A stretch of DNA of 64,000 bases from Arctopsyche grandis (Eukaryota; Arthropoda; Insecta; Trichoptera; Hydropsychidae). The position numbers and the translations under genes were made by a program. The stretch is taken from assembly GCF_051622035.1 (NCBI RefSeq), contig NC_135362.1, positions 27,215,001 to 27,279,000 on the forward strand, written 5' to 3'. This document shows positions 6,605-53,869 of this stretch, piece after piece. The notes below the pieces were generated by a model, which searched no databases, was not told the origin of the DNA, and saw nothing but the letters and a program-made list of their open reading frames with translations. Position 1 is the first letter of the stretch. Every line of letters starts with the position of its first letter.

Positions 6605-7075
6605 ATAGCATTAAATCAGCAAAATAGACTAGTGGTTAGTATATAATGCCTTAAAAAAAGTGATCACGGGTTCAAATCCCACTGGTTTCTGTTGGCCAGA
6701 CCTTGAATTTGTGACTTCAGGTCGATCGTTTCCAATTAGAGTTTGCCAATTTATCTGATTTCCATTGAAACGGTTCCAACAAATTGGCAACCTTACCCAT
6801 TTTCTCGCAAATCTCGAATTTCACTGAATTGTATAACATGCTACAATTTACTAATTTGACCATAGATGTCTCTGTGGATGTTTATTGATATGTATTCACT
6901 GAATTGCTTAAAAATGCTGCAAATTTATAAATTTGACCATAGATGTATCTGTGGGTGTTAATTGATATTGATATTTACTTTGTATAAATACTAATAATAC
7001 GTATATCAAATGTTCAATGTTTCTGGTCAGAAAGGTGCATTGGGGCTACCTGTTAGGCCTTCCTGGTATAAATTA
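6605..7075 (+). repeat. Full-length tRNA-derived SINE with 3' hairpin
   Basis: The most complete copy. Pol III A box TAGACTAGTGGTTAGTA at 6625-6641 and B box GGGTTCAAATCCC at 6668-6680, a normal tRNA spacing. The body follows (GGCCAGACCTTGAATTTGTG, GGTCGATCGTTTCC, TTTGCCAATTTATCTGATTT, then AAATTGGCAA pairing back to TTGCCAATTT). The segment holding CCATAGATGTCTCTGTG occurs twice in tandem (6860s and 6940s, about 80 bp apart). The 3' end is a 40-nt hairpin at 7027-7066. Transcription by RNA polymerase III is inferred from the boxes. Confidence 0.88.
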
Positions 7076-7175
7076 ATAATTTACAAAAAAACCGTTCGTG
7101 TCAATTTATGGCGCAGACACACAAAATTGTACGGCACGGCATGCCTAGGTAGAATGGACGTGTCTTCATGTCATT

Positions 7176-7330
7176 TCTCCTACACTACTTCAAATAAGTA
7201 TCGTTATCGATCACTATTAAACCTATGCCAATACAAGGAAAATATATTTGCAAAAACACTCCAGGGGTTGAGTTTTGGTCTGGCATAGATCAGGCGTGGT
7301 AGCGTTTTTTTTGCATGAGCAAAACTGTCG
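7176..7330 (+). repeat. Fragment of the element at 60691-61271
   Basis: TTTCTCCTAC..CTTCAAATA, CGTTATCGATCACT and AAAAACACTCCAGGGG occur in the same order as at about 61068-61165 in the LDL-receptor-related gene intron. The element there has AGGGCGAAAACACAC terminal inverted repeats; no clear termini remain here. Confidence 0.6.
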
Positions 7331-7379
7331 AAAAAAAAACAAACAAGGTATGCCTACGCTCTTAACCATGTTACCGTAA

Positions 7380-7510
7380 GCTTAATGTTTAATGTAATGT
7401 TTAATTGTTATTTTGTTTTTTTTGTGTTATGTTTTTGACCATTGTGGCGCTTTAGGAATTCCTGTTATGCCACAATGGTCTGTTTAGAATAAAATAAATA
7501 AATAAAATAA
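7380..7510 (+). mobile_element. 3' end of CR1/Jockey-like LINE with perfect hairpin
   Basis: Only 3' UTR. The hairpin at 7437-7480 has a perfect 12-bp stem (GACCATTGTGGC / GCCACAATGGTC) and a 20-nt loop containing the self-complementary AGGAATTCCT. The tail is AAAATAAATAAATAAA-like. Same family as 9605-9648. Confidence 0.8.
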
Positions 7511-8800
7511 ATAAATAACCCACAAACTCTCTAAACTTGCAGTGTATTAACTCAAACTGTCGTGATAAGTGATTATTAAACTGTCGTAATATGAATAACG
7601 CAATAAAGGTGCGTTTTAAATGCTGCGACCATGCGACACAAGATATGCCACATATTAATCAATATTGAAAAAAAAACGTTCATATATTCAAAACATGCCC
7701 CTAGAAACAGTTGTAAGTAGCATACAAGATCATATGTTCAATTAGTTAATCACGACATTAAAATTGCATTTAGGATTAGGCTTGGTATTGGGTATGAAGT
7801 TTTAATATATGTACATAGAACTTTAGTCAGAGGTAGAAAGGTTCGAGAAAACTGTTCAACTATTCTAAGCAGGGTATACTGTTGAATCTAGATACATACA
7901 TATCTCGTTTTCGATTGAGAAGGTCCAGGAGTTTATCAGCCAGATAATTGAGCGGTAGTTCAGATGCACTAGCGCGTGCAACGGATTGCATCCTGCTTAT
8001 CGGAAGCACTGGCTGCGGGTCGCCATTGACCCAAAGTGAATATACCCAGCGGTCATTATACCTCGTTTCCTGTCATATCTTGGCGCAGTGATCTCCTGAC
8101 GCCTATTCGGAAGTGCCTAATCTGTCTTCCCCTCTGGCGATCACGACCCAAAACAATGCACTCTACCGTGAACAGTCAAAATTACACTCGTCTCGGAATA
8201 AAACCGAACCGAACACGGGAATGCGCTTTCATAAAGTTGTAAGTAAGCTGTTAAGCTCCAGCATCAAGTTGGCAGTCCATCGAACAGAGCACTAAAAGTC
8301 TGAACCCACCCCCCAACTCCTCCTGTTCCAGAGCGCGGTAATAGTTTAAATAAAATGCATCGGTTTCGGGGGAGGGGGGGGGGGGTTGTGGGTGTTTGTG
8401 ATGGTGCAGGAACGAAAATAGAAGACGGATGTCGAAACAAAACAATTCACGTTTGATTCATTACGCTTCTTTTCTAGTTGTTATTCGGTGCGCGGACCGA
8501 AATCTGTTCGTTGAACACGTGTTCCCCGTAAATGTCAGCTCTTCCGGGAACGGTCGCACATGTTACCCCCCTGACTTTTGTGGCCTTTTCGACTTTTGTT
8601 CTCACCCGATGACGATAAATCGTGAAAAACATACGAAAAAAGTTTTGTCTCCCTCGTCGCCACCCCCACTGTGGGTGGCTTGTTTTGAATTGGAAAATCG
8701 TCCATAAAAAAACATTGAATTGATTCGAATTCTATTTGACGAATTCCATCTAGGTACATCGTACGAGTTGTATGCATTATTTTTTCATACAGACTTGACA
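7511..8800. other. Intergenic; G-rich run
   Basis: No gene supported. A G-rich run (GGGGGAGGGG followed by ten or more G) lies at about 8369-8387. The two opposing ORFs at 8429-8801 overlap on opposite strands and match nothing I know. Confidence 0.5.
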
Positions 8801-8809
8801 AATCACTAT

Positions 8810-9700
8810 AAAAGCAGAACTGGAAACAACTAGCAGGAGCTTTGCACTACATACCCTATTGAGTTCGCTTATAGTCTTCGGAACTATCAATTAACACGAA
8901 CTGACTCAACTGTTGATCTTGGTATACTGTTTAGGAGTGACTTTAAATTTTCGACTCATATTTCAGATATGTGCTGTAGGGCTACCAAAATGCTTGGATT
9001 TGTTCTGCGCAATTCTCACTACTTCCAAGATCTGAATATAATGGTATTACTTTATTGTTCGCTTGTCCGGAGCATATTGGAGTTTGGGTCTGTAATTTGG
9101 AGTCCTACTGAAATTAAATTATCTCTATTGATAGAAAGAGTCCAGAAGAAATTTCTACGATACCTATACTTGAAAAAGTATGGGTATTATCCGTATTTAT
9201 TTCCCACAGCGTTTCTGCAAGGTACCTTGGGCTTCAATTCTTTGGCTTCTAGAAGGATTGTTGCCATTTCCAAATACTTCTTTGGAGTTTTAAATGGAGT
9301 TGTTGACAATCCCTCGATTTTATCAGAGCTTAAGTTTTGGGCTCCTGAGACCGGTAGAGCGCTGCGTAATCGACGACTCTTTCAACCTATCTTTGCAAGA
9401 ACGTCTACTTTCAAGAACTCGTCACTGGTGGAAGCTATCCGGTTCCTTAATGTGATTGATGAGCATTTTGACCTGTTCAACTGTCATGTTGATGAGCTGG
9501 TTAGTTTCTTGAGATTCAATACGAGACTATTTGAATGAGATGAATGATTGGAATTTTTATTGCTTTTTCTTTGTTATTTTATTTATATATTTTTTTTTTT
9601 GTAAGACCGGTGTGACGCTTTGGGGCAACCTGTCATGTCACACTGGTCATTTTATTGTTGTTATTATTTTAAAATAATAAATTAAATAAATAAATAGTAT
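8810..9700 (+). mobile_element. 5'-truncated CR1/Jockey-like LINE, 3' half
   Basis: Contains the end of a non-LTR reverse transcriptase ORF (open at 8969-9538). Upstream in the same frame is STVDLGILFRSDFKFSTHIS, the usual DLGxxF..L.F..HI motif downstream of the RT catalytic region. Then come MLGFVLRN, LLYCSLVRSILEFGSVIWSP and LIERVQKKFLRYL, typical of the CR1/Jockey group thumb region, and the C-terminal conserved block (LKFWAP, IRFLN). Catalytic YxDD and endonuclease regions are missing because the copy is 5'-truncated. The hairpin at 9605-9648 has arms GACCGGTGTGAC / GTCACACTGGTC (one G-T pair), followed by AAATAAATAAATA. The SINE at 9707 abuts its tail. Confidence 0.88.
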
Positions 9701-9706
9701 TTTCTA

Positions 9707-10165
9707 ACCAGCAGCATTGGCTAGTTGCTAGAATATATTGCTATGGTCAGTGTTCTAGTCACACTGGTTGCTGCTGGCCAGACCTTGGTTTGTAACCAGG
9801 TCGGTCGTTTCTTATCAGACTTCGCCAATTTTACCGATTTGTATTGAGACGTTTCCTGCAAAATTGGATTTCCCTCTTCATGTCTCTCGCCAAATCTTGA
9901 GTTACTGTGTTATATCTCAGGATTGGCCGAGTTTCTCTCCATAGATGTATCTGTGTATGTTTATTGTATAAATTCGTATTGTTGTATAAAAATGTTTATT
10001 GATCGTATAATCGTCTTGTATACGATGTTTATTGATCGTATTGTATACGATGTTTGCAATGTATTACCATAGATGTCATAGTACACTCGTCGCATTGGAG
10101 TGATCTGTAATGACGAGTGTATATTGATTGATTGAATAAAATAAAAAACAAAATAAATAAAAATT
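9707..10165 (+). repeat. Full-length tRNA-derived SINE, second hairpin type
   Basis: Begins AACCAGCAGCATTGGCTAG and carries the family body (GCTGGCCAGACCTTGG, AGGTCGGTCGTTTC, CCATAGATGTATCTGTG). Its 3' hairpin at 10082-10121 has a perfect 10-bp stem TACACTCGTC / GACGAGTGTA around a 20-nt loop, then an A-rich AATAAA tail. The stem is unrelated to that of the SINE at 6605-7075, though the bodies are homologous. Confidence 0.88.
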
Positions 10166-10246
10166 TTATGTGAAGAAACAATATGTATATGTATGTACAT
10201 GGCTAGTGGATCAATCTTTCAATTTTTGAAAGATTTCAAGTTATAC

Positions 10247-10577
10247 TGTAACGTGGGAACTGTCTGTGCATTCGTGGGTGAACAACAAAGACCCCGGATT
10301 AGGCTAACGGGACTCGAACAGTAAGTGTCCGAACAAAAGATACGCTGAAATTCTCACAGACCTGGGCAAATGTGTGCGTAAACAATAGACTCACCAGGGT
10401 AGAACTTAACGTGCCTAGATAATAGACATATTAATGGATCATAGGATGAAGGAGGTAGATCAGATTATTCTGGAGTGAGCGGAGGTTCCGTGTGGACCTC
10501 TCGAATCGTTGAATAAATGCTGTGAAACGACTTTGGCCTTTCATTTAGATCCTGAACCCACCCATACGCAACATTGC
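10247..10577 (+). mobile_element. LTR-like solo repeat (fossil)
   Basis: Starts TGTAACGTGGGAAC and carries an AATAAA in its second half. A second copy lies on the minus strand at about 36486-36820. The start resembles that of the LTR-like repeat at 51932-52251. The direct repeat TATAC flanks 10247-10577. No internal coding region accompanies it. Family unassigned; it reads as an old solo copy. Confidence 0.45.
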
Positions 10578-10680
10578 TATACATGAGGCCACGACGTGGT
10601 TCTTATTAAATTAAAAACGTATGTTGACTCTCCCATTTTTGACTTGGAATTAGAAAATTTTCAATTCTTCCACTATTCTC

Positions 10681-11118
10681 CTAGCCAGCAGCATGGCTCG
10701 GTGGTTGCGTTTATGCTAAGCACCGAGGGGCACCGGGTTCGATCCCGTGAGCTAGCCTCGATTGAAAATAATTTATTCCCATAATCTTTAATACTGCTGG
10801 TCAGACTTGGATATTTGTGACTCCAAGTCGATATATGTCCTAACATAATTTGCCAATTTATCTGATTTCATTGATGAAACGGTTCCCCATCAAATTGGCA
10901 AAAACCATCCTACCAATTATGCCACCACTATTTAAATATGATTTATATACAAATCCATAGAATTAAATCCATAGATGTCTCTTTGATTTAGAGTTTTTCT
11001 CAACATCTCAAAATTCAGTGATTTATGTAATGAAAAAATGCTACAATTTTTGTAATTGGCTATGAAGGCACATTGGGGTTTACCTATTAGACCATCCTGG
11101 TATATATTTATATAATAA
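10681..11118 (+). repeat. tRNA-derived SINE, variant head
   Basis: A box TGGCTCGGTGGTTGCG at 10694-10709 and B box GGGTTCGATCCC at 10735-10746, both close to real tRNA boxes. Body shared with the family (CTGCTGGTCAGACTTGG, TGACTCCAAGTCGAT, AATTTGCCAATTTATCTGA). A decayed hairpin of the CCAGGAAGGC type lies at 11060-11100. The head sequence (AATAATTTATTCCCATAATC) is shared with the copy at 16140-16470, defining a subfamily. Confidence 0.85.
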
Positions 11119-11653
11119 AAAATGTCTGTCCTGTCCTGATAGATATTTAAATCAGACAATTCCATATATGTATTTTTGATGTTTTAATTGGATGCTAGTA
11201 TTCCTTGGTATTGAAAAACTTGAAATACAATATTCGTGTAACTTCAACACGACTAGCTTAACTAGAATTTTTAAACCCTTTACCAGTTCATATGAAAATA
11301 GTAGTGATTGCATTATATATAATATTTCATCTCATTCAAGATGGAATCTGTCGTCACACAAATATTTTATCAGACAATTTTACATACTTTTTGATATTTT
11401 GATTGGAACCAAGTATTCGTAGGTATTGAAAAACTTGAAATACATTATTTGTGCAACACGACTGGATTAGCTAGAATTTATTATCCCCTATCTACATATG
11501 TAGATAGTAGGGATTTCCTTACATATAGGTACCTACAGGCATGTTATTGTATTATAAAATCGATTCAAATGGCGTATTGTAGATTAGGTAGTCTTGAATT
11601 TGTTTATTTTCTGTATTTAATATCCAAAATGACAGCTTTGAGCGGACTAAATT

Positions 11654-11870
11654 TTGATTTTTAAATGCTTTTTATTATTACTAAATTATGTTCACAATAC
11701 ATCTTATATCTATTTTAATAGCTACTGATCTACTGATCATTTTCTATTTTACAATTTTAATTTAATTTTGTTAGTAATCGTAGTATTATATTATTATAAT
11801 GTTAATATGTACAGCGTAATAGGAAAAAGAGCTCAACAACCTATTTACAATTACGGAGGTATGCAAGACA
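11654..11870 (+). repeat. About 200-bp dispersed repeat, copy 1
   Basis: Runs from TTTTGATTTTTAAATG to about GAGCTCAACAACCTATTTAC. It recurs inverted at 13330-13545 and again at 39011-39192, where 14-bp target duplications bound it. No open frame and no known family. Confidence 0.75.
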
Positions 11871-13329: not shown

Positions 13330-13545
13330 AAAATTGTAAATAGGTTTTTGAGCTCTTTTTCCTATTATGCTGTACATTAACATTAGAATAATATAATACT
13401 ATGATTACTAACCAAATTAAATTTAAATTGTAAAATAGAAAATAATCAGTAGATCAGTAGCTATTAAAATAGATATAAGATGTAGTGTGAACATAATTTC
13501 GTAATAATAAAAACCATTTAAAAATCAAAATACAATGAAGTACAA
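13330..13545 (-). repeat. About 200-bp dispersed repeat, copy 2 (inverted)
   Basis: Reverse complement of 11654-11870, including the outer AAATC/GATTT edge and the GAGCTCTTTTTCCTATTATG block. Copies 1 and 2 are more alike than either is to copy 3 at 39011. Confidence 0.75.
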
Positions 13546-13559
13546 GCATCCACAGTGAT

Positions 13560-13836
13560 ATCTATAGAGAAATTTTTTCAGCATTTTATAATCAAATTGC
13601 CAAACCCCAAGACGCTGAATAACTTAAGATTAGCAAAAGAGATAGAAAAGGAGAATCCCATTTTACAGGAATCGTTTCAATTAAAACCAGAAAAATTGGC
13701 AAACTCTGATAAAAAGTGATCGACCTTGGAGTCACAAACCAAGGTCTGGCCTGCAGCGGAACTCTAGTGGGACTCGAACCCGTGACAATCTGCTCGAAAG
13801 CATAATATGCTAACTACTAGTCCACGCCGCTGATTA
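13560..13836 (-). repeat. tRNA-derived SINE copy, 3'-truncated
   Basis: On the minus strand the A box is TGGACTAGTAGTTAGCAT, and a canonical B box, GGGTTCGAGTCCCA, lies at 13768-13781. The body then reads CAGGCCAGACCTTGG, GGTCGATCACT, and on. This is the best-preserved B box in the window. Confidence 0.85.
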
Positions 13837-13860
13837 TTTGTATTTTGTGTATTATTCGTC

Positions 13861-16139: not shown

Positions 16140-16470
16140 TTATTTATTTACATATTAGAATACAGAATACTCTAACGCATCACTGTGACCAGACATATAA
16201 GCATAATACAAATACTATATATAAGAAAATCAGCGAGACATCTACATATATTATAGATAAGAAATCATATTCAAATAGTGGTGACATGGTGAGTAGGATG
16301 GTTTTTGCCAATTCGATGGAGGAACCGCTTCAACAATGAAATCAGATAAATCGGCAAACTCTGATATGAAATGACCGACTTTGAGTCACAAATATCTAAA
16401 TCTGATCAGCAGCATTAAAGATTATACTCAGAATAAATTATTTTCTCAGAATTTTCACTCCGATTTTTCT
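16140..16470 (-). repeat. tRNA-derived SINE copy, variant-head subfamily
   Basis: On the minus strand it shares with 10681-11118 the block AATAATTTATTCTGAGTATA / CTTTAATGCTGCTGATCAG and the common body (AGTCGGTCATTTCATATCAG). Its 3' end ends in AAATAAATAAATGA; a degraded hairpin loop (GCGTTAGAGTATTCTGTATT) is still visible just before it. Confidence 0.75.
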
Positions 16471-16596: not shown

Positions 16597-17095
16597 CAGC
16601 CAGCAGTTTGGCTTAATGGTAGCGTATATATTTAGCACCACTGCGATCGATGGATCGACTCACCAAACTGCTGGTTAGATTTGGGGTTTTGTGACTCCAA
16701 ATCGATCGTTTCGCTATCAGAGTTTCCCAATTTTATCTGATCATTGTTGAAACGATTCCTGAAAATTGGTACTAGATCATTTCCTGTTGTCACAAATATC
16801 TATGTGTATAATTTGTAGAAATTATGCACAGAAATCTAAAATCTATAGATGTCTCTATAATTTCGTGTTTATTATGTGTATAAAAATTGTAATAATAATT
16901 GTGCACAAAATCTAAAAATAATCCATAGATGTCTCTATGATTATTATTTCTGTACTTGATTAATTATTGTATTCGATGTTTATTGAACGTACTGTATACG
17001 TTGTCTGACCGTTCTCGTACGCTCGTCGCATTGGAGCGATCTGTAATGACGAGTGTACATTGATTGTAATAAAAATAAAAATAAAAAAAATTATA
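16597..17095 (+). repeat. Full-length tRNA-derived SINE, second hairpin type
   Basis: A box TGGCTTAATGGTAGCG begins at 16609 and the B-box region is near 16649-16662. Body as elsewhere, with two copies of the ATAGATGTCTCTAT segment. The 3' hairpin at 17017-17058 has an 11-bp stem GTACGCTCGTC / GACGAGTGTAC (one G-T pair) and an A-rich AATAAA tail. The element at 17108 sits directly beside the tail. Confidence 0.85.
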
Positions 17096-17107
17096 TATAT
17101 ACCACAA

Positions 17108-27517: not shown

Positions 27518-28686
27518 ATGGAGTGCAGACTTTGCCTCTGTTCTTTTACAGTTGAGTCATTGGTCTCAATCTATGACAACTCTCATCCAATACTTCAACT
27601 TATTCGAACGTGCTGTCAACTACAAGTCGGTTACAGTTACTGTTTACTTATTGTATGAAATTTAAATCAATTCCCACTTCAACCTTTCTAATTTTCAGAT
27701 TAAAAATGATGACGGGTTGCCAAATACGATGTCTTTCGTGTGACAATAATCTGGAATTGTTTAACAATTTTCGAAACGTTTGTCATAAAAGTTACGAAAC
27801 ATCGAAACTGAGGTTAAACCAGTATTCGGATATCAAGCCAGAAGAAGTTTTACTGGAAGATTTAAAATGTGAACATGAGCAGACCGGTGGTTCGCCAATA
27901 AAAGTTTGTAATTACTCCGTTAACAACGAGATTCTACACAAAATGGCTATTTGATTAAACATATAAATTCATCAGTAAATTGGATTCTCGTCCCACTAAT
28001 AATATAACATCCATTTCAAGTTATATGACGTTCGTTTTAATTTACAGATCCATGGGAGAAAAGTTACTTCATGTAATTATAAAACTGGAACATTTGACCA
28101 TATTGAACCTCCATTACCGCAAACTGCCGATTTACAATTACATCAAAATAATCATGCACCACTCAAATGTGAATTTTGTTTCAAATCATTTGCTTCCAAA
28201 TCCAACCTTATGAGACATTTGAAAGTTCATTCAGAAGAAAATTCCTATAAATGTGATATTTGCCTAAAATCATTTGCTACAAAATATCACCTTGTAAAAC
28301 ACAAAATATCCGATACTGGGGAAAAGCCATACAAATGTGACATTTGTTTAAAATCATTTCCTACAAAGTATTATCATACAATACATGAAAGATCTCATGC
28401 CGGAGAAAAGGCGCACAAATGTGAAATTTGTCTAAAACCATTTACTACAAAACGTAACCTTATTCGACATTTGAAACTTCATTCTGGAGAAAAACCGTAC
28501 AGATGTGATATTTGTTTAAAATCATTTGCTGATAAATCCAACTTTGTGAGACATGAAAAATCTCACTCTGAAGAAAAGCCATACAAATGTGATATTTGTT
28601 TAAAATCATTTGTTACAAAATATCACCTCGGAATACACGAAAGGTCTCATACTAGGAAAAGCCATATAAATGTGATATTTACTTAA
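27518..28686 (+). CDS. ZAD and C2H2 zinc-finger protein, probably degraded
   Basis: Exon 1 (27518-27625) starts MECRLCLCSF, the CxxC start of a ZAD (zinc-finger-associated) dimerisation domain. Exon 2 (27699 to about 27890) continues with NDDGLPNT and then CLSCDNNLELFNNFRNVC, the second ZAD cysteine pair; these two pieces lie in different frames, a one-base frame discontinuity around 27729. Exon 3 starts about 28049 after a TTTACAG acceptor and holds six C2H2 fingers (first at 28163): KCEFC, YKCDIC, YKCDIC, HKCEIC, YRCDIC, YKCDIC, with TGEKPY-type linkers. Finger 2 ends HKISD instead of H-x3-H. A seventh finger is lost after 28650: TRKSH replaces TGEKP by a shift and the next Cys is Tyr. ZAD proteins are insect DNA-binding regulators. 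With several lesions this copy is likely a recent pseudogene, unless they are assembly errors. Confidence 0.8.
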
Positions 28687-28991
28687 AAGTATTATTATAC
28701 AATACATGAAGTTGTATTGTATAATAATACGTTGAACACTGACATTAACAATACCCTTTCATTGTTTTATGAAATTGTTTACTTGTCATTTGATATGTGT
28801 TTTCGTAGGAAACGGTTTTCTTTTAAATTAATTAATATACTGAGGGAAAAGCAGACTAGTCACAAGAGATGGAAAAAAATAAAAATCCTCTTGATTTTGA
28901 AGAGTACCGACGACTTTGTAGGGTCACAAAAAGTTTAATTACATCTTGTTATAATATATTGGTTGAAAGATATGAAAACTCACTGCCTAAA

Positions 28992-31780
28992 GCATTCTGG
29001 AATTATATTAAATCAAACAAAGTTTTTCTTCTTCTCAATGCCCCATCCGCAGCCGGACGTTGGCGACCACCTCATCGATTATTTGAAGATATCCGCATCG
29101 GTCTTCAGCGGCTCGGAACAGATCTTCGGCGCTCATATCGGTCTACATGCGCATGTTTCGAAGCCAAGACAACTTCTTATTGCCAATCCATTTTCTTCCT
29201 TCTATTTTTCCCATGGTTATCAAACGGAGAAATTCGTATTTTGGACCCCTGTATCATGTGTACTCCATCTTTCTCCGCTTGATGACAAGCAAGTTCCCTG
29301 CCTCTCCCTATCATGCCGAGGATAGCTTCATTCGATATTTTTTTGGTCCACAGGATCCTCAGCATACGCCTGTAGACCCACATCTCAAAAGCTTCGATGC
29401 GGCTAATCATCCTGGTCTCCAGAGTCCACGTTTCACATTCATATAGTAACACTGTCTAGACGTAGCTCTTCGCGAATCTCAAACACTTATGAAGATTGAG
29501 TTAAAGCTTGTTTGTAAGCGCTGCCTTCATTTTGCTGCTGCTGTTCTAGCCATCTCGATGCGGATTCTTAGATCTTCATCTGGGTCCATATCTTCATTTA
29601 GCCAGGTACCCAGGTATTTGATTCTTTTGACTTTTTCTAACACCTCTCCATCCAACGTTAGATCACCGGTGTCTGTTTGCATTCTATCTACTATCATAAA
29701 TTTTGTCTTTATATTTATGCGCAAACTTCTTCGATTGCTTTCTTGATGTACACGGTCTAGAGATCTTTGCAGGTCTGCTAAATCTTCAGCGACTAGTGCC
29801 GTGTCATCAGCATATCTTATATTGGTGATTGTCTCGCCACCTACCCTCTGCTTCTTGGAGAGCATCGTGGAAGATGGATTCGGTGTAGGTGTTAAAAAGA
29901 GTAGGTGATACGATGCATCCTTGCCTGACGCCCCGCTCTATAGGAATCTCATTAGTGAATTGATCATCGACGCGCATTACCGCAGTCTGAATCCAATAAA
30001 TATTTCGGAGCAATCTGACATCTCTTCCATCAGGCGAGCGTGTTGGACGGTCAAAATCCTTTATAAAATATCTATAAAGCAGATGTACACAGGTTTATGG
30101 ACTTCTCTGCGTGTTTGGAGTAGTGTTTTCATGCAGATAAGGGCCTCTCGGGTACCCAACAGCTCGTCTGAACCCAAACTGCTCTCTGCCAATCGCCTCT
30201 TCACACCGTGAGTAAATTCTGCCCTGTATTACCCTTAGTGGGATCTTCAATGTGTGACTCATTAGACTAATTATTCTGAAGTCGCTACACGTCCTCGCGT
30301 TACTCTTTTTTTGCAACGGGATAAATATGGATTGTAATCAATCGCTAGGTAGTTTGCCTGATAAGTTTATTTTATTGAAGAGTTCTGTGAGATCTTCTAT
30401 GTTGTCGTTGTCCAATAACTTGAGGAATTCGGCAGGAATCAGATCCAGTCCATTTGCTTTCTGACTCTTTGCTAATTTTATAGCATTTCTGGATCTTCAA
30501 TATGCCCTCCGGTCTCTCTATTGTCTTTAAAGAGCGATTTTGTGTACTCAGTCCATTCTCATTTTTTCTCATCCATATTAAAAATGATTTTTCCATTTTT
30601 ATTCCTAAGGAGTATGAAATCTTTTTTTCTGAATGATCCTGTTGCTTCTTTTATACACTTTTATTGAGATCTTTTGTAAATTGTTCGTGGATCCTAAGAT
30701 TTTTAAGCAACTCTAAATCCAATCTTGGTTTAGGTTTTGATGTTCTTAAAATCTTTTTCAATCTTGTTTTCAATTTTCCACAAAGTAGATTATGATCGGA
30801 AGCCACGTCCGCACCAGGGTAGGTTTTCACCGATTTTATACTATTTTTAAATCTGCTGTTTATCAAAATAAAGTCAATTTGATTTCGCACAATATTATCA
30901 GGACAGTTCATTGGGGATTTCCATGTGTATAATCTTCTTTTGGGTAGCTTAAAGAAAGTATTCAAGATAACATACTGCTCTTCCTGGCAAAACTGAACGA
31001 GTCTGTCTCCTCTCTCATTTCTTTTTATCAGTTATTTTCATTGTTTCTTCGTCTCCAATTTTGGCGTTGAAATTTCCCATTATAATGTTAACATCATGTT
31101 TTTTCGTATATGTCATCAATTCTTTGATTTGTTGAAAAATTTTTTCAATCTCATTTTCTTCTTTATCGAAAGTGGGGGCATACACTTGTATTATGTTAAC
31201 ATTTATCGGTTTTCCGGCTAATTATATCATCATGACACGTTCATATGACGGAATAAAGTTTCTCACACTTTTACTTATATCATCTTCCAGAATCACAGCA
31301 ACACCATTCTTATGAGTACCATCAAGAGATCCCGAGTAGTAAGTCGTGTATCCATTGCAATTCCTCGTTTTTCCTGCTCCAGGCCATCTAGCTTCGATTG
31401 TTCCGAGCATATGTATTTGATTTTTTTTCATTTCTAGTTGCAGAATTTGAATTTTACCTGCTTGATACATGATCCTAACGTTCCATGTACCAATTTTTCG
31501 TATGTTCACCACTTTGAGTCCGGGGGTTCTTAACATCCCTGCCACATTGAAGGAACGCCGGAGACTCGGGGTCACGGTTTTAGGTTTTCTCTTTATGGTG
31601 GTTATACTAGGGTTATGAGAGCTCAGTAGTTTTCCCCAAACCTTCTGCTCCGCAGAATTCAAACCGGTTGAGTGGCTGCCATGTCGCTTTGAATCTTCCA
31701 TCTTTTGCCGTTTTAGTATATTGCATATACTTCCACCGTGGATGGTACTGACAGAGCTGCTACTCACTGCTAGGGATTTA
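28992..31780 (-). mobile_element. RTE-type LINE, near full length but broken
   Basis: Minus strand. The 5' part (31767-31222) is an AP endonuclease like that of craniofacial development protein 2-like elements (IGTWNVRIMYQAGKI, GTIEARWPGAGKT, GVAVILEDDI). Positions 30965-30651 carry the end of the endonuclease (SDHNLL). RT pieces follow at about 30316-30095 (EQFGFRRAVG), 30013-29807 (GVRQGCIVSPTLFN) and 29865-29527 with the catalytic YADD (NIRYADDTALVAEDLADLQ). The C-terminal block is at 29452-29177 (CETWTLETRMISRIEAFEMW). Frames change several times, so it is inactive. A shorter 3' copy lies at 43625-43800. Confidence 0.9.
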
Positions 31781-31799: not shown

Positions 31800-32765
31800 G
31801 GGAAGGGTGGTACGGTACCTTTCAAAACCGTTACCAAAAAAAGTTACCCAATTCCAATTATCTGAAATGTATAATGAAATTAAGTCATTTAAAGGTAATG
31901 GTGAACTCGCATTTTGGTTTGCAGATCATTTCAGCTCTACATTTGATGATTTTTTCACTCAATCTTCAGTTAGCTGCACTTATGAATGCAATTCCTCAAC
32001 ATCCCCCTTGATTTCCACCTTGGAAATTCAAATCTGATGATAATCTTTTAATTCTTCTGGACCGAACCTCATACCAGATTTTGTTTTAACGAGCTGTAAA
32101 ATGAGTCTGCTATTTCATTTAGGTTTTATTTTTAATTTATCACTGAAATCGTCGTCGTTTCCTGATTTATGAAAATGCACGAAAGTGACTCCAGTCCACA
32201 AATAAAAAGGAGATAAAACATGTATTGGAAATTACAGAACAGTTGCTATTGTTTGAGCACCTGATAAATTAATGGAAATAATTTTACATAAATTTATTTA
32301 TAGACATTCTAGTCAAATTCTGATTGATCAGCAGCATGGCTTTCGTCCTGGTGGTCGTTCAACGAATACTAACCTATTAACATTTTCAAACTTCGTTACT
32401 AGATCTTTAGATTCGGGGCTTATCTTTCAGAAGAAATATCCAATTAATATCTCACTTCTATATACTATTAAGAGGTGAGATAAGCAATCTGACGGTGCTT
32501 GAAGAATTGAAACTATGGGCTCCCATACGCTGCCACGATTATGGCACACGTCCGTTGTTTCAGGTGACGAAGGCGACAACCAGTATCCTTGCTGATTCGC
32601 CTATTGCTCGAGCCATTCGTCTACTCAACTTACTTTCCGGTCACATAAATCTCTTTACCATTACACCAGATCATCTGTCCACTTTCTTGGGTTTTTTAAA
32701 TTCTAACTATTTAAATGCTATTTCTTTAATATATTGATGTGTATGTATATACTTATGCATGCATC
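31800..32765 (+). mobile_element. CR1/Jockey-like LINE, internally deleted
   Basis: Fragments in order: a pre-RT region (FQLSEMYNEIKSFKGNGELA..HFSSTFDDFF), an RT segment (QQHGFRPGGRSTNTNLLTF) at about 32330-32400, then directly the C-terminal block (LEELKLWAPIRCHDYGTRPL..AIRLLNLL) homologous to the LINE at 8810-9700. The catalytic core between is deleted and the terminal hairpin is missing. Confidence 0.8.
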
Positions 32766-33239: not shown

Positions 33240-33600
33240 TTTTATTTTAAACTAATGTTGTGCCCGTTGAAATTTCAACAGGTGGTTTTGGAAACAAATT
33301 GATACTTGATTTAAAATAAAGTTACAATACATATAGTAATAACTAATCGGAATCGGAACTAAAACAGAAATCGGGAATCGGAATTGAAACAGGGATCGGT
33401 ATCCGGAACTGAAAATGGAGTCCGTATCTGAAACAAAAAGGAATCCAGAACCGGGAATGGAAAAGGAATCAGGATCCAGAACTGAAAAAAGAATCGGGAT
33501 CCAGAACTGAAACAGTAATCGGGATCCGGAACTGAAACACTACTCGGGATTCGGAACTGAAACACTGCTGGGGATCCGGAACTGAAACTGAACAAATGAA
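33240..33600 (-). mobile_element. Helitron-like 3' end with minisatellite
   Basis: On the minus strand the element ends with a hairpin (CCTGTTGAAATTTCAACGGG), then CACAACATTAG. Upstream of it (33340-33600 on plus) are some ten tandem imperfect repeats of about 30 bp of the type CGGGATCCGGAACTGAAAC. The same order occurs at 43075-43276. Confidence 0.6.
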
Positions 33601-37599: not shown

Positions 37600-40500
37600 A
37601 TGGTAAAACCACCAGAAATTGCATCGCCATGTGAAGAGGCAGTTATCAACTCAAAACATGCCCTGCGTATTCTGAAAAAGATGAACGAAGATCAGTCGGT
37701 GTATGATGTAATCCTCTGCATTAAAGGAGAAGAGTATGTAACCCAACTATGAATTTGAATCCGCTATCAAAACCATTTCTAAAATGTTTTAAAACTACTT
37801 TCAGATTACCAGCCCATAAAATTGTGCTAGCCGCAGCAAGTCAATACTTTTATACCATGTTTACCTGTGGCATGAAAGAGTCGCAAGAAAGATTTGTAGA
37901 ATTTGACGACACAAGCATGGAGACAATGAAAAAAATTGTAAATTACATATATAATGGCACTCTAGGTGAATATAAGTTATTCCCAGGTTGAAATGATCGA
38001 TTTTGATATTGAAAATAATTTTTTACTTCTTGTTGTTTTCAGATGTGACCGATGACACGGTGGAATCACTACTGCAAGCGGCATATCTTTTTCAATTAGA
38101 AGATGTAATTGACAAATGCTGTGAGCGTCTCAAAGAAAACTTGGCGCTCAACAATTGCATAGGAATTATGGTCATGGCTGATCTACACAATTTGGTAGAT
38201 CTCAAGATAACAGCTCTCGATTTTGTGAATGAGAACTTCCTGAATGTATGTACTGTATTCTTTGCTTATTTATATTAAAATCAAACAGCCAATGTGATTT
38301 TAATTTTTTTACGCAGGTTTTTCAACAAGAAGAATTCATGAAGCTCACTATTGAACAGCTTTCGACAATATTAAATTCACAAAATATTGCCGTTGAAGCG
38401 GAAGAACAAATCTTTATATGCATAACGACTTGGATAGATTTTAAAAAGTCTGAAAGAGAAAAACATTTATTACGTTTATTAAAATTGGTGAAAATTCCTC
38501 TGATCACTCCCAAGGTTTGTTTGTTTTCAACTATTATTAAAACATAGTTCTGCAAAGTGAATCTAAGAGCTGGGTCACACCGTGCGTCTTGCGAGCGACT
38601 TGGTTGAGGGCGACCAGACCAATGTATGCAGTTAGATGGGGCATGCCACACCCATCAACTTGTTTGTAGTTCACATTTCCATACGTTTTTTCTGGTCGCG
38701 CAACTAGTCGGTCGACAATGTTGCACGGTGTGGTTCGGGTCTAACTCATACCAAGTAACATTGAGCATTATTTTTCTCACAATTGGGTCAGATCCTCGTA
38801 ATGAACCTGCATTCTGCTGTTTTAAGCATGTATTCTCATTAAAGTGGCAACTTTTCACAGCTTGAGTTCATATTTTAATTTATATCAGGAAGACCTAACA
38901 GGAAACCCCAATACGCCTTCTTGGCCAGAAAAATTGTACATTTGATACAAGTATTATTATTATTAAACAAAAGTAAATAAATATCAATTAACACCCACAG
39001 AGACATCTATTGATTTAAAAAAAAAATTATTATTACTAAATTATGTTCAAAATGCATCTTATTTTAATAGCCTAATAGATCTGATCATTTTCTATTTTAT
39101 CATTTTATTTTTGTTAATAATAATAGTATTATATTATTCAAATGTTAATGTAACAATAGGAAAAAGAGCTCAAAAACCTATTTAAAATTCTAACAGAGAC
39201 ATCTATGGTCAAATTTGTAAATTTGCAGTATTTTATACAATTCAGCGAAATTTGAGATTGCTGAAAACTCGAAATTTGCGAGATAATTGGTAAGGTTACT
39301 AATTTGTTGGGATAGTTTCAACGAAAATCAGATAAATTGGCAAACTATGATAGGAAACGATCGACCTGGAGTCACAAATCCAAGGTCTGGCCAGCAGAAG
39401 TCAGTGGGATTTGAAGCCGTGACCACTGTGCTCAAAGCATTATTTGCTAACCTCTCGTCTATTCTGCTTGCTAGATTTTTTGATTTTTTGTAATCATTCT
39501 GGGTTGATCTGTATCCGACATTCTTTTAATATCCAAAATTCTTAGGGTTTTAGTTCTGAGTGGACTCTTTCATTAGAACACAGCTGTAAAGAATTTATAT
39601 TATAGATTGTGAAGTTTACAAAGTTGCATTTGTCAACATGTTACTCATATGAGCTTGATAATTTTTGCAGAAATATATCTGTTTAATTTATACATATATG
39701 CAGAAAGTTTAATTGTAACCTGCAATGGGTAAATTTTTGTTTTAGTTTATCTCTAATCAGATAAAAGGTTACTGTCGATCGTCCCCCGAATGTATGGACG
39801 TCATTATGGAATCGTACGAATCCCGTTTAATACCAGATAATTCACAGTTGATGCCGAGTCCGAGACCACTTCCAAAATATTCTCTCGAAAAAGTTGTCAT
39901 TGTTTGTGATTTTGGCCGTGAGGTAATATTTACATGCCATTCAACCGTCTTTATTATGATCGTGACAATCTCAAATTATGATCGAGTGCTTTGTTTACAG
40001 AAATTGGATATTAAGAGGCTTGATCCGATCGCCAATTCCTGGTCGTATTGCGCGTCATTAGATTACCGTAAAAGTGAATTCGGGGTGGCTGCCATTGAAG
40101 ATGGTAAAATTATCGTTCTCGGTGGATTGATTAGCGGTGCTCCGACTGATACTGTATGTATTATATTATTGTCATTTCTAATTCTATTGTTGCCAATTTT
40201 TTATTTGTTTCGTTGGTTTTTAGGTTGAATGTATCGATTTGAAAACGACTTGTACCTTTGAGCTTTCGCCTATGCCGAAAAGTTGTCATAATTTTGAAGC
40301 CATTTCTATCGGCGAAGGTAGTTCATTGGCTGTGTATGCCGTTGGCGGGCAAAATGGAAACGAAACATTAAATACTGTTCAGAAGTAAGTATATGAGTAT
40401 TCCTACTCTCAGTTAGTTATTAAATATTTATTGTTCAAATAAACTGCTCATATAATAATCGTGTAATAATTTATTTTGGGTGCAATTTAGATTTAGAGCT

Positions 40501-43276: not shown

Positions 43277-43284
43277 CACTAGTT

Positions 43285-43620: not shown

Positions 43621-43624
43621 GTTT

Positions 43625-45068: not shown

Positions 45069-45069
45069 A

Positions 45070-48000: not shown

Positions 48001-51000
48001 GAGTATTTTAGGAAGACGCTATCTGTCGTTGTTCCTTGAAAATTTGTGCTCTCAAGGGCTGGTCGGTTATTGGATGGCTGTAGAAGAGTTGAGGTCGAGT
48101 CGTAGAAGCAATTGGCATCAGTTGGGTGCTGAGATTTTCTATACGTATATAAGATCTCCCAGTGCCGAGATTAAAGTTGATAAGGTATGTTTTTTGTTAG
48201 AGAGAAATTGGAAAATATGTTTTATATTAAAATAATTCAAGTATTATTACATTTAATAGGAAACGCGTAAACGCATGGAAGCGTTTTTGCTCGGCGATAA
48301 AGGTCCCGAAGTGTTTTATGAAGTTCAACAGATGGTTATTAACACGTTGTACGATAAATATTATCAATCGTTTCTTACTAGCGAACAATACCGATCGTTG
48401 ATCAAGGCTTTGGCAACTGATGAAGATAAACCTGGTTTGTTATACATATGTGTACTACTTTTTTGTAATTGTGAATATTTTGATTTAACACTTTCAACCC
48501 GGCGTGTACCACCGGTGGCCACGCGGATAGTGCTATAGCAGACTATAATTTTACGGTTCCACTTCATTGAGCACCCCAACACTAAAATTCCTATAAAATT
48601 CTAAAGATTTAGGGACAACTCATTATATAAAGTGATTTAATGCCGTCACGCGTAATTAGGTGCCGATACGCGTGACAGTGCCGCCACATGGGCAAATGTA
48701 TGAAATCACGCGCCGGGCTGAATGTGTTAAGTCATTGTATGACATTTTTATAACGTTTTATATCATATTTTAGCCTATATATGTATATATATATATATAT
48801 AGATCAATGTTTGTCTGTCTGTCATGTATGCGTTCCTATACAATTCAACCGATTGCGATGAAACTTACATGAGTTATTGATGGTGTCTGTAAAGAAAATC
48901 ACCAAAGAATGGGAACGGGAAAACAGGGATGAGTGGCATTGCAATGCAATAATTTCAAATGTGTTCGCCGCCTGCGTTTTTTCGACAAATGGGAACGGGA
49001 ATTGCATATGTTATTGTGCATTGCAACGCATGCCGGGTTCAGCTACATAGTTAGTTATAAAACTTGTATGTATAAAATATATGAAAATTTGATACTGCTA
49101 TAAGGAAAATAATACATCCTTATAAATAGAAAATTTTCTCTTCCTCTTCGTTTGCTCAATGCTCGTGGTCATTGATGACGGTCAATGAGCGTCGTGGTCA
49201 TTGATGTCGGCTGGAATTTGATAGACGATCTGTCTCTACTTTTCCCAGTTCTGTATCATGTTAGGGACGATCCCGTCAGTACTTTGATTTGGTCTGACCA
49301 TTTCTTGAGAGACTGTCCTCTTGCTCATCTTCCCTCCACAGTGTTCCGATGACTGCCAGCCTCTCCAAATATTCTTCTTGGCAATATGACCAAAGTAGGA
49401 AAGAATCCTTTTCCTACATTTTGTGGAAAGTTTCTCTGAAAATTCACACTCTTTGAGGATGGAGATGTTCTTTCGTCTTGCAGTCCATGGGATGCGCAGC
49501 CTCCGTCTCCAACACCACACTTCGAATGCATTTAGCATGTCCTTTTCTCTCTTTTTCAGGGTCCATGTCTCGACTCCATATAATAAAATGCGAAACACCA
49601 GAAATTGTACCAGATGGATTTTCGTTCTTCTCATAATAGAGTGCTTCTTTCATATCTTTATCAGACTGATCATTGCTATTTTCGCCATTTCTACTCTTCT
49701 GCGGATTTCAAATTGGCATCCTCCTTGAGATTAAAGCATGTGTGTAGATAAAGTAGTCGACTTCCTCATAGTCTTTCAAAGCATTGCACTTTATGAGAAA
49801 CTGAAATCTATCAACGAATAGGATTTTTGTTTATCTCTAGACTCAGACGTCTACTCTCCATCTCTATTCTACGAAGTAGTTAAGTCATTTCATTCTCATT
49901 GCTAGTTGTGATGTTATGTCGTCCGCTAATCTTATGTTTTTTCCACTGCCTGTTATTATGCCACCTTTCCATCTGTCCAGTACTTTTTTTTAATTATGTA
50001 TTCCTCATATATGTACATATATTAAAAAGATCAAGAGAGAGTAAAGAAGATAGACATATGCAAACACAGACTTAAAAAATCAGAATTAGTCGATACTTAA
50101 CCGTTGATTTGCCGTTATGTAGATCAACAAATCGTGGAAAACTCTCCAATGGAAGAAAGGCAGCTCTCTGGTGACTCGGTATCCTCGAACGAAAGTGCAG
50201 TAGGTGCCTTAAACGTCGGAGAACACTCTAGCTATGCACGTAAAAAATTGGATCAACTTCAAGAAAGACTCGAAAACAAAACTCAGGTTCGATAAAATAA
50301 CTCTTCAATAGTCTTATTAAAATGCTTTCTTATTGTATGTAATACATTTGCTATCATAAAACGTTTAGGCATTGCAAGCGTTACAAGCATCGCTCAAACC
50401 GGAGTCAAAGGTATTGCAACTGCTACGAAAGGAAGTGACAGTTTTAACCGAGGAAAGACATCGTGTGGAAGCCCATTTAGCCAGAGCTCACGCGTGGGCT
50501 CAACACCTCGGCAAATGGAGAGCTACAGTTCATAATGCCGAGGTATTTTCTTCTTAATTAGGTCTCGTTGAATGTTTTTGTGGAATTGTTCTAATCTTTT
50601 TGATGCTTCAGTTCGATGTAGACTCTCAAATTCCTCAATTTGTACTCGTCGTTCATATGGATGAGTCGTGCGGTGAAGGAGAGGCCAGCGAAAAAGAAGG
50701 CATTTCAACTGGTTGGGTCCTGCTTAGAACTTTGGCACATTTTCAGGTGTGTTTTATCATCGTTATAAGAATAAATGAAATTAACAATTGTCTTGGGATG
50801 TATTTTATTTTTGTTTTGTTTTTTAGGAATTGCATAGAAAACTTCGCCCACTGTGTTCTGGAATTAAAAATTTGGAATTGCCTTCGAATACGTTTAAATT
50901 TTTATTTAGTAAAAACGATAAAAGCTCATTAGATAAAGCCAAAATGCAAATTCAAAAATATTTACAAGTAATTTTTACAATTCTTACGTATATTATTCAA

Positions 51001-53869
51001 TCAAATTTTATTATTAAAAATGTTATTAATTCATATGTGTTCAGTTCATATTAGAAGACGAGCATTTGAATCAAAGTGAGGCCATTTATGCGTTTATGAG
51101 TCCCAGTTCGGAGCATCTCAAACACAATACACCATCACCGAAGAAATCCCGTTTTTCATTCTCTACGCTATTCAAAAGGTCTTGTTTTAATATTCAAAAA
51201 TATATATTAATAATATTCCATGTATGTATTTTAAATAATGTCAAATACTGATTGCAGCGGAAGTAACGAAAGCGGTCCTCGCAATTCGTACGAAAAGAAC
51301 GATCTCATCATAAGAGAGTCGGGTGAAGACGATGACATATCGTTGTATCTCGACGGAGAAAGCGGCGAAGTAGGCAATAAGAACGTAGCTGGCAGTGGAA
51401 GGAATATCTTAGGCGTACAAACGAGCAATAACGAAGATGGTAAAGACGGCATAGCTGAACCTCTCTATACGCTGATGGGAGAAGTATTCGACATGCGAGG
51501 AGTCTTCAAATGGTTGAGGAAGACTTTGATATCATTCGTTCAAATAACATACGGCAGGACAATAAATCGGTATGTTGATCTATGCATGTTTACACCGAAT
51601 CCGCGACAGTGCCTATTGTCTGAAATCGGCAAAAAAATGACCGAATTCATGAAAAGTGCAAGCCCGTTGCTTTATTCATCGAATAGGCAAGTTAGGTGTC
51701 GAATGCGTGCATTAAGTAGTGTATAGAATTCTTAAATTGTCATTTTGACAGTCGAAGAAATAATTTTGAAATTTAGCCCCTATCAGTTAAATTACAATTA
51801 TCTAACCCTTAAATAAATAAGTGTTGGCTGTTAAGATTTGATGGGCGAACACCGAATCTGTCGTGACAGCTATTTTAGAGAGGTTCATTCTTTTATTTGC
51901 AGTTTAAGAAATGAGCATTCGCATATAATATTGTAGCGTGGACTTGAAGAGGGGTTTCCAGGATTGGAGAGAAAGACGCAGTAGTGATGTGGAAGTAGTT
52001 TATTCGTCTGCACCCATCGGCTCTCCAGCTCGGAATGCTTTCCAGTTAGATAGCGCCCAATATGTATACTCATTGGGCGCAATACACATACAGACATAAG
52101 CCTATTGGTCGATGAGTCGCGCGATCATATTGGCCGTAACATACGGCTCCCCTATACGTCGAGGCCATTTTGGCGCGAACGAGAGATCAGGTGATTAGCG
52201 CTGGTAAACCATCGGTCCACGAGCGCCAACTAACCTAATCTCTACGTTACAATATGTTTAGATTTGACAGATCCAGACAACACTGCACTGAGACGAGTGA
52301 GGCGCCCACGTGACCAATCGACGGTGTCGCCATCGAACGGCGCACACGTACAATGGATTTTGCCTTTACTTAGTGGAAAACGTACTTTGCTCAATGCATG
52401 AAAAAGGCAAGAACATTTATGCCCAATGCACGCATTCGGCAGCTAACTTGCCCATTTGATGAATTTAAGCAACGAGCTTACACTGTTCATGAATTCGGCA
52501 ATTTTTTGCCGATTTCACGAAATAGGCAATTTCACGGATTCGGTGTAACACATATAATGATGAAAGATTTTGGCTTATTTATGTACTATAGGCGAAAAAT
52601 CCACCGGATGAATCTTCGCCGAGTGTTTTTTTGAACATTTTTTTTATTATTTTAGACAAATACGTGATACTATAACTTGGGTATTTTCTGAACCCATGCT
52701 TCACTATTATATCAATATTCTTATCAAATCGTGGTGGCCCGGTGGTGTTCTAGCAAAGTCGGCCGAACATCGCACTCAAGCTATGAAAGGTATGCTCTTT
52801 TTTTTATTATAACATGAACTTTTCTTTCAAACTGTTATAAAAATGATTCATTTACGTTTTGCGCAGATGAAACGCGAAAAATAGCTCGGCAACAATTCAT
52901 CAACAACATACCAGAAGTTCTCACCAGTCTCGTCGGAACGCAATCGGCTCAAAGAGGAGCGCAAAAAATATTTGATACATTACAAAATCATGTACAAAAT
53001 AAACAGTTGTTTTACGTGAGTCGTTTTCGTACTGTACATATATTTCAAATGCAATGATGTAATATTATACGGTGCTACTTTAGTATGCGGTCTACCTTTG
53101 AACGCAGTCGACTATTTTTTTTTTATTTGTATCGTAGCAACGAAGTGTTTATTACAATTTGTGTTTTTTCCTGCCGCCCCATAATGTTGTCGAAGCATTT
53201 CTATCAAAATATCGTCAGCAGATACATATCTCTTAACCAAATCTTAAATTAATAGAGCCAACCTTAACTTAACCTAACCTATCCTGACCCTTAGATAAAT
53301 AGGTGTTGACGTTAAGATATTTATTTATTTATTTTTAACATATATGTATACCAGGAAGGCCTTACAGGTAAACCCCAATGCGCCTTCCTGGCCAATTACA
53401 ATGCAGCATTTTTATATAAGTCACTGAATTACGAGACACCGAAAAACTCGCAAATCAATGAGACATCTATCAAATTGTACACAAACATATTTATTGCACA
53501 TTAATCAATCACAAATTATAGGTGACATATTGTATAGGAAGGATTTTAGCCAATTTTTTCCGGGAACCGTTTCAACAATGAAATCAGAGAAAATTGGCAA
53601 ACTCTGATAGGAAACGATCAGAGTTTGTTTTTAAACGATCATTTAAGATTAGGTTGTTAGTGTCGGTATTATTTAGTCTCAGTGTCAGTGAGACCGCATA
53701 TTAAAGTAAAAACGTGAAGGTAGATCGCATACTAAAGTAGATATGTGAAGGTAGACCGCATACTAAAGTAGCATCTATTATATACTTAAACGTGTGTATT
53801 TTTTATTTGCAGGATCTCTTTGAATTATTTCTGATGGAAGTGTTTCCGGAATTGAAGCAACATCTATAA
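45070..53869 (+). CDS. snz: Sorting nexin 25 / snazarus (TM-PXA-RGS-PX-nexin C)
   Basis: Complete, 983 aa. Coding exons: 45070-45297, 45380-45690, 47128-47300, 47375-47561, 47636-47903, 47975-48184, 48260-48434, 50123-50286, 50369-50542, 50612-50746, 50827-50967, 51045-51178, 51258-51569, 52656-52789, 52867-53015, 53813-53869; all phases fit. Order: two N-terminal hydrophobic segments (residues 1-50); PXA about 95-290 (TVDSLLQQLIELILRDFLFV, YFIRH-like FYIRHLSELF, LLREVLACK); RGS about 395-525 (SLFLENLCSQGLVGYWMAVE, YYQSFLTSEQYRSL); coiled coil about 555-625; PX about 630-745 (GWVLLRTLAHFQELHRKL, lacking the usual RRYxxF arginine pair); nexin C about 845-983 (MLHYYINILIKSWWPGG..ARQQFINNIPEVLTSL). 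Known role: snazarus/SNX25 proteins sit in the ER and tether it to other membranes, in the fly to the plasma membrane near peripheral lipid droplets. Introns 7 and 13 are swollen by mobile elements. Confidence 0.95.
48486..48731. mobile_element. TTAA-type MITE in sorting nexin intron 7
   Basis: Ends TTAACACTTTCAACCCGGCG and CGCCGGGCTGAATGTGTTAA are inverted, each including TTAA. The inside has CACGCG-type repeats. Sequence differs from the 18151 family, so a second piggyBac-like group. Confidence 0.75.
48800..49045 (-). repeat. CTAGCTGAA.CCGGC repeat, third copy
   Basis: On the minus strand GTAGCTGAACCCGGCATGCG, then GTTGCAATGCACAATAACAT and GGGAACGGGAATTG; shared with 21671 and 21959. The other end has TTCAACCGATTGCGATGAAA. 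Confidence 0.5.
49140..49740 (-). mobile_element. RTE/BovB-type LINE 3' end in sorting nexin intron 7
   Basis: Minus-strand frame with the BovB/RTE C-terminal signature: VETWTLKKREKDMLNAFEVW, RRRLRIPWTARRKN, CRKRILSYFGHIAKK. 5'-truncated, opposite to the host gene. Confidence 0.88.
51593..52545. mobile_element. Fold-back DNA element in sorting nexin intron 13
   Basis: Terminal inverted repeats of about 140 bp: left arm 51593-51730 starts CACCGAATCCG, right arm 52400-52545 ends CGGATTCGGTG. Arms share GCCTATT, CGAATTCATGAA, GGGCAAGTTAG-like blocks and GAATGCGTGCATT. The dinucleotide TA flanks both ends. It starts only 22 bp after the exon 13 donor and lies wholly within the intron. Confidence 0.82.
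51932..52251 (+). mobile_element. LTR-like solo repeat (fossil) nested in the fold-back element
   Basis: Begins TGTAGCGTGGACTTG, ends TCTACGTTACA; the ends are inverted (TGTARCGTRGA) and 4-bp repeats ATAT bound it. That fits a solo LTR of the Ty3/gypsy kind. No coding region. Confidence 0.6.
53325..53645 (-). repeat. tRNA-derived SINE, 5'-truncated, in sorting nexin intron 15
   Basis: On the minus strand: TCGTTTCCTATCAGAG, TTTGCCAATTTTCTCTGATT, TTGTTGAAACGGTTCC, ATAGATGTCTCATTG, then the hairpin at 53351-53391 with a perfect 10-bp stem (CCAGGAAGGC / GCCTTCCTGG) and an AAATAAATAAATA tail. The tRNA head is missing. Confidence 0.88.

Follow-up and report, generated by a model that had tools for sequence, protein, structure and literature searches.

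One 3′ hairpin architecture at the ends of several LINE and SINE families in Arctopsyche grandis

Results

Nine hairpins in a 64,000-nt window

We analyzed a 64,000-nt stretch of Arctopsyche grandis DNA (contig NC_135362.1, positions 27,215,001 to 27,279,000; hereafter the window) in which long and short interspersed nuclear elements (LINEs and SINEs) end in one type of hairpin, and we followed this hairpin through the genome (475.7 Mb, 189 contigs). The architecture was found at the 3′ ends of LINE families A, B, C, and E and of SINE families S1, S1b, S2, S3, and D, and LINE-F probably bears it as well; the family labels used here (A to F, D, S1 to S3) were coined for this analysis. An earlier note on the window had described nine such hairpins, and all nine are present where it placed them and on the strands it gave (Table 1). 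Its grouping of the elements has changed. The three LINE copies, treated there as one group, belong to two families (LINE-B at 931 and 7437, LINE-A at 9605), and under its type 1 SINE fall at least two SINEs that share a tail, namely S1 (10683-11119 and 53347-53619) and S1b (hairpins at 7027 and 38885).

Scanning both strands of the window for loop motifs flanked by complementary sequence returned 35 clusters, in which the nine hairpins had stem scores of 5-12 and the other 26 had scores of 0-5. We then made a covariance model from the nine hairpins and searched the window unfiltered. The nine match by construction, with 45-60 bits; no tenth site was found in the window at E < 0.001, and the next matches were the reverse complements of two of the nine (E 0.0011 and 0.33). 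When folded singly, seven of the nine were better than shuffles (z −2.5 to −7.5). The two that were not, at 7027 and 11060, are decayed copies. The AATAAA-like tail said to follow all nine is plain in six, weak at 11060, and not plain at 7027 and 38885.

Table 1. Hairpins of the window and the elements that bear them
Feature	Position	Strand	Evidence
LINE-B copy, decayed 3′ part, hairpin 931-974 at its end	376..998	+	blastn to L086, 78.8% / 70.7%
LINE-B 3′ hairpin, stem starting GACCATTGTG	931..974	+	motif scan, covariance model; DNA similarity to LINE-B alongside
S1b SINE, core 6689-6777, S1-type tail 7024-7076	6689..7076	+	different tRNA-like head just upstream, by eye
S1-type 3′ hairpin of S1b SINE	7027..7066	+	covariance model; alone z −0.77
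3′ hairpin of 5′-truncated LINE-B copy, stem GACCATTGTGGC, loop GCTTTAGGAATTCCTGTTAT	7437..7480	+	covariance model; z −7.5
LINE-A reverse transcriptase open reading frame, C-terminal part, 5′-truncated copy	8834..9538	+	open frame; 97.8% over 227 aa to L078 frame
LINE-A 3′ hairpin, stem GACCGGTGTGAC, loop GCTTTGGGGCAACCTGTCAT, GCAA apex	9605..9648	+	starts 66 nt past stop codon
S2 copy, core domain 9769-9867 and tail	9769..10164	+	
S2 3′ hairpin, TACACTCGTC / GACGAGTGTA, GTGA apex	10082..10121	+	covariance model; z −4.1
S1 SINE: tRNA-like head, core domain, tail	10683..11119	+	79.1% to S1 consensus, 445 columns
S1 3′ hairpin, decayed	11060..11100	+	covariance model; alone z +0.33
S2 copy, core domain 16668-16769 and tail	16668..17100	+	
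S2 3′ hairpin, GCGA apex	17017..17058	+	covariance model; z −3.9
S1b copy, core 39397-39315, tail 38927-38871	38871..39397	−	sequence match to core and tail
S1-type 3′ hairpin (S1b copy)	38885..38924	−	covariance model; z −2.5
S1 copy, 87% identical, matched from consensus position 149 onward only	53347..53619	−	
S1 3′ hairpin, best preserved, CCAGGAAGGC / GCCTTCCTGG	53351..53391	−	covariance model; z −3.95

Loop architecture and copy number

The hairpin is predicted to consist of an outer stem of ~10-12 bp, an internal loop that is symmetrical, with 3 or 4 nt per side (the size varies between single folds), a short inner stem, and an apical loop. The inner stem is predicted to open with U.G, usually followed by G.U wobble pairs. 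The apex is GCAA in LINE-A, LINE-C, and SINE-D and GTGA or GCGA in S2, all of which are GNRA, and it is AATT in LINE-B and TTTA in LINE-E. The loop, which had been described as constant, therefore varies at the apex and, in LINE-F and S3, also on its 5′ side (GACCT).

Genome-wide, the loop GCATTGGGGNNNACCTGTAA gave 5663 + 5564 matches (11,227) with up to two mismatches, versus 7 + 3 (10) for the reversed pattern, and a looser 20-nt loop pattern gave 2944 + 3062 matches versus 3 + 6 for its control, which excludes chance; these counts, and those given below for single families, are pattern matches, and the patterns favor intact loops.

The hairpin ends several LINE families

The window open reading frame (ORF) of LINE-A has no Pfam match of its own, and the closely similar L078 ORF holds RVT_1. 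A protein search yielded 30 LINE-A loci including the window copy, and the hairpin lies 3′ of the ORF in all except L058. In one locus (L060) it stands ~500 nt downstream of the ORF with an S1 hairpin in between. Two diverged relatives (L076 and L077) gave one degraded hairpin (E 0.27) and one lack of match, and a weak match with another stem was seen at L018:2584-2629 (E 0.54).

The same search recovered a second family, LINE-C, with a protein identity to LINE-A of 50-51% and a 960-aa open frame in many copies. This ORF encodes an endonuclease (PF03372, residues 28-168) and a reverse transcriptase (PF00078, residues 517-740) in one protein, and the closest solved structure by sequence is LINE-1 ORF2. 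All seven fetched LINE-C loci end in AATCACATTGAC / GCTTTGGGGCAACCTGTCAA / GTCTCTGTGGTA. Upstream of the LINE-C ORF, L069:1-467 consists of ~72-nt tandem repeats (6.5 copies), possibly a repeated promoter.

LINE-B has coding sequence 5′ of the hairpin in two of the six loci fetched with their upstream side, and its protein pieces are 33-44% identical to those of A, C, and E. For the LINE-B hairpin at 7437, the genome contains 636 + 668 = 1304 exact copies of the first 35 letters. The segment around that hairpin (7401-7508) is 89.1% identical in DNA to the 3′ end of L086, a LINE-B locus. In the copy at 376..998, the DNA similarity covers 376-515 and 581-998, with tblastn remnants 63.6% and 61.1% identical to L083.

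LINE-E was recognized from four loci in which a 20-nt loop sits on an S1-type stem. In three of them, one being the source of the query, a LINE ORF terminates upstream, and a 3′ untranslated region (UTR) rich in short repeats separates its end from the hairpin; the fourth (L092) shows no coding sequence. The LINE-E protein is 60-62% identical to that of LINE-C, and the window yielded no coding copy of LINE-E. A LINE-F fragment in L098 ends in AGCGACCGTGAC / GCGCTGGAGCTCTCGGTAAT / GTCACTGTGGCT. The hairpin is not a feature of every LINE: in another family (L001-L008) it is absent from 8/8 fetched loci, though the longest ORF ends inside each locus. That family has a 906-aa open frame in many copies.

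SINEs with the same type of tail

S1 is laid out as a tRNA-like head, a core domain, and a tail; its head contains GGTTCGATCCC, which we read by eye as a B box in a tRNA-like context. The S1b head also reads as tRNA-like, in a sequence unlike that of S1. S1b, S2, and S3 have a core domain in common and differ in heads or tails. The S2 pattern gave 344 + 292 genome matches (control 0), and the SINE core was present in seven of eight S2 loci, the fetched stretch of L097 containing neither core nor LINE coding sequence. The S3 tail, AGCCATAGTGAC / GACCTGGAGCTAATCTGTAAT / GTCGCTATGGCG, gave 399 + 392 genome matches with up to three mismatches (control 0); the core was found in four of five S3/F loci, and L105 had neither core nor coding sequence. 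SINE-D carries the hairpin ACCATAGGTGTC / GCCTTGGGGCAACCTGTCAT / GGCACCTATGGT, with the core detected by blastn in two of four loci (L081 and L082), by eye only in L080, and not in L079. We also considered that these SINE families might simply be LINE 3′ UTRs; we rejected this for S1, S1b, S2, and S3 in view of the tRNA-like head or core domain upstream.

Five more SINE copies with the same core lie in the window, all on the minus strand (237-303, 2800-2887, 5169-5246, 13668-13757, and 16263-16445); the covariance model found no hairpin in these five, and the copy at 13668-13757 has a decayed S2-like tail at its end. Variants of GACCATAGATGTCTCTGTGG, at times repeated, occur in S1b and S2 bodies (window 6820-6968; L098-L104). 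These variants could pair into an additional small hairpin (CCATAGA / TCTGTGG), and their sequence is similar to that of the 5′ arm in SINE-D.

In LINE-A (29/30 loci) and LINE-C (7/7), the hairpin lies just before the terminal repeat. This position would suit a role in RNA 3′-end formation, stability, or transport rather than recognition by a reverse transcriptase. LINEs and tRNA-headed SINEs are, however, expected to use different polymerases, and the hairpin is common to LINEs and to SINEs with tRNA-like heads. Its absence from the L001-L008 family and the lack of any Rfam match in the window at the gathering threshold also argue against such a role, which we regard as improbable.

Stem pairing is kept by compensatory changes

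The earlier note had proposed covariation in the stem as a check, and alignments with shuffled controls bear it out. Among nine representatives, 93.1% of stem cells pair, versus 67.9% after shuffling, and 37 cells are changed on both sides, versus 10.9. Sliding the partners by up to three columns lowers pairing to 29-52%, and RNAalifold without an imposed structure returned the same fold except for the outermost pair. In a seven-family alignment anchored on the loop, 75 of the 77 inner stem pair-cells pair; shuffled 3′ letters gave a mean of 50.3 and a maximum of 63, with 0/10,000 shuffles as high. Furthermore, 102 of 146 differing cells in this alignment are double changes that remain paired.

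We compared changes within and between families using the first 100 matches of the looser 20-nt loop pattern in contig order. All of these lie on contig C1 and were selected on the loop only, and the family shares among them are not a genome-wide census. Within families, 109 cells were changed: 66 single changes still paired, many of which look like subfamily variants, 38 single changes broke the pair, four were double and paired, and one was double and broken, leaving 39 unpaired. Comparison of six family consensuses gave 63 differing cells, of which 52 were double and paired; the ten cells with a broken pair were all due to the LINE-C mismatch. The families are not independent draws. Since changes between families are mostly double and compensated and those within families are mostly single, a third of them breaking the pair, these sequence patterns indicate that the RNA structure of the hairpin was under selection.

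The LINE stems are related, and S1 has a partner LINE

The claim that the stem sequence is free is not borne out. All seven families have G-C as the third pair from the loop (−3), and at the loop-closing position (−1) six have C-G and one has U.G. Outside these two columns, the arms of LINE-A, -B, -C, and -E have an identity of 0.433, compared with 0.238 for shuffles (P about 0.001), which indicates that the LINE stems are diverged relatives. This applies to the LINEs; with the arms of D and S2 added, the values are 0.293 and 0.243 (P 0.09). The description of the stems as unrelated between groups accordingly stands only in part: S2 shares 2/12 letters with LINE-A and 2/12 with LINE-B, and LINE-A and LINE-B share 9/12.

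The likeness of the LINE arms is what neutral leftovers of one ancestral tail, held together by descent with no constraint, would also leave. The contrast between compensated changes among families and broken pairs within them speaks against this, as does the agreement of LINE-A and LINE-C in 19/20 loop letters when their proteins are about 52% identical, and we consider neutral descent very improbable.

The 3′ tail shared by a LINE and SINEs, another claim of the earlier note, is supported by LINE-E. Its hairpin is 89% identical to that of S1 and 57-61% identical to those of LINE-A, -B, and -C, so that S1 has a partner LINE matching it in both stem and loop. The S3 tail resembles the end of the LINE-F fragment in L098, a locus in which a SINE core sits between that fragment and an S2 hairpin. 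A LINE for each SINE stem type was thus obtained for type 1, and none was found for type 2 in eight loci.

We weighed these results against the reading of the earlier note, in which the stem is free, the loop and overall shape alone are recognized, and a single LINE serves SINEs whose stems are unrelated. LINE-A and LINE-C do agree in 19/20 loop letters with different stems (6/12 letters alike), and the S2 stem is without a LINE match in eight loci. In addition, two zebrafish LINEs tolerate stem swaps, ZfL2-1 at about half rate (PMC4176376). However, S1 has its own partner with the same stem, S3 resembles LINE-F, the −3 pair is invariant, the LINE stems are related by descent, and UnaL2 is harmed by changes in stem sequence (PMC4176376). 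We therefore think it rather unlikely that the loop and shape are all that is read.

Discussion

We consider it highly probable that the hairpin is a 3′-end recognition element of related LINEs, a copy of which several tRNA-headed SINEs carry in their tails. It is very probably a handle for the reverse transcriptase of these elements, and the best reading is that it represents the inherited recognition hairpin of "stringent-type" LINEs. The LINEs are non-long-terminal-repeat retrotransposons encoding an apurinic-type endonuclease together with a reverse transcriptase. In this scheme, their protein would bind the loop region and the stem shape and begin target-primed reverse transcription at the hairpin, and SINE RNAs bearing the tail would thereby be copied too. 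The stem would have drifted through compensated changes, with pairing counting more than sequence, while protein binding or common descent would have restrained both ends of the stem. SINEs that share a single core domain would have taken different tails from different LINEs.

Several observations weigh against this reading. The LINE-C stem contains a two-by-two mismatch, and one of the seven LINE-C copies (L073) is two letters shorter in the 3′ arm. The GNRA apex is missing in LINE-B, in LINE-E and S1, and in LINE-F and S3, and the assignment of LINE-F comes from one decayed LINE fragment only. LINE coding sequence belonging to the S2 hairpin was found in 0/8 loci. ARAGORN detected a tRNA in 0/17 SINE heads, so the tRNA origin of the heads rests on boxes read by eye. 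A crude search for target-site duplications gave three weak candidates in 15 SINE copies, none of them established. Finally, changes in the stem sequence of UnaL2 cut retrotransposition sharply (PMC4176376); pairing alone need not suffice, which also speaks against a wholly free stem.

The hairpin resembles those of the L2-clade, stringent-type elements ZfL2-1, ZfL2-2, and UnaL2, which likewise stand at the LINE 3′ end and belong to a class shared with SINEs (PMC4176376). It differs from them in its larger loop, which, as predicted from sequence alone, comprises an internal loop, an inner stem, and often a GNRA apex. The stems of ZfL2-1 and ZfL2-2 are described as interchangeable, with the loop being specific, and disrupted pairing abolished movement of ZfL2-2 (PMC4176376). 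The tail is bound there by the region between endonuclease and reverse transcriptase, a conserved part of which is proposed to serve the stem and a variable part the loop (PMC4176376). In LINE-C, a P-W-x18-W motif lies at residue 321, between endonuclease and reverse transcriptase. Its spacing equals that of the conserved P324, W325, and W344 within the tail-binding region of ZfL2-2 (PMC4176376), a match of spacing and not a sequence alignment. HKLWKK recurs in a LINE-A copy.

LINE-A and LINE-C, at least, might use a common loop code and cross-mobilize each other's RNA together with SINEs that have their own stems, such as S2, though we give this limited credence. Five or six base pairs at mid-stem would then be an unread spacer, with G-N-C, the internal loop, the U.G-G.U pairs, and the apical loop forming the whole signal, a proposal that we likewise regard as doubtful.

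The earlier note had called the combination of features unusual, which it is not. A variable stem with a conserved loop has been published, both for monocots (PMC3747384) and in the zebrafish stem swaps (PMC4176376). Monocot L1 LINEs and their SINEs show a variable stem, compensatory mutations, and a conserved loop, and stem-loops are common among stringent-type elements according to the review in PMC3747384. As in the monocot L1s, ZmSINE2/3, and sorghum SINEs, the hairpin (~45-50 nt in monocots) is shared by LINEs and SINEs, with a variable stem and a retained loop; the monocot hairpin differs in belonging to another LINE clade, in its UCU loop letters, and in a conserved CGAG 3′ of the stem (PMC3747384). 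The SINEs described here are further reminiscent of HaSE1 and HaSE2 of Helicoverpa armigera, which have a tRNA-related head and a conserved central domain common to SINEs with different 3′ regions; the likeness is one of description only, and in HaSE1 and HaSE2 the 3′ parts correspond to an RTE LINE and to a mariner-like element (PMC3272025). The principle is already known, and the families and loop presented here are additional members. We recognized no paper on this particular hairpin in the literature searched, which leaves out most subscription journals, and the families and loop may already have been published.

Together, four LINE families, probably joined by a fifth, and five SINE families form a natural stem-swap series within one genome, in which differing, compensated stems accompany one loop architecture. 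Beyond fish and plants, such a series would allow one to ask what in a LINE tail is read by the reverse transcriptase and how a SINE passes from one partner to another.

Other features of the window

The window contains further LINE fragments: a reverse transcriptase piece at 29527-29937 (minus strand), slightly below the Pfam cut-off, and fragments at 28741-29024 and 31837-32695 (both plus strand). Stretches among these three are 38-46% identical to the LINE-A/C protein. Two tandem arrays are also present, one of 25 bp at 33345-33588 (9.9 copies) and one of 84 bp at 28164-28688, the frame of which reads by eye like C2H2 zinc fingers.

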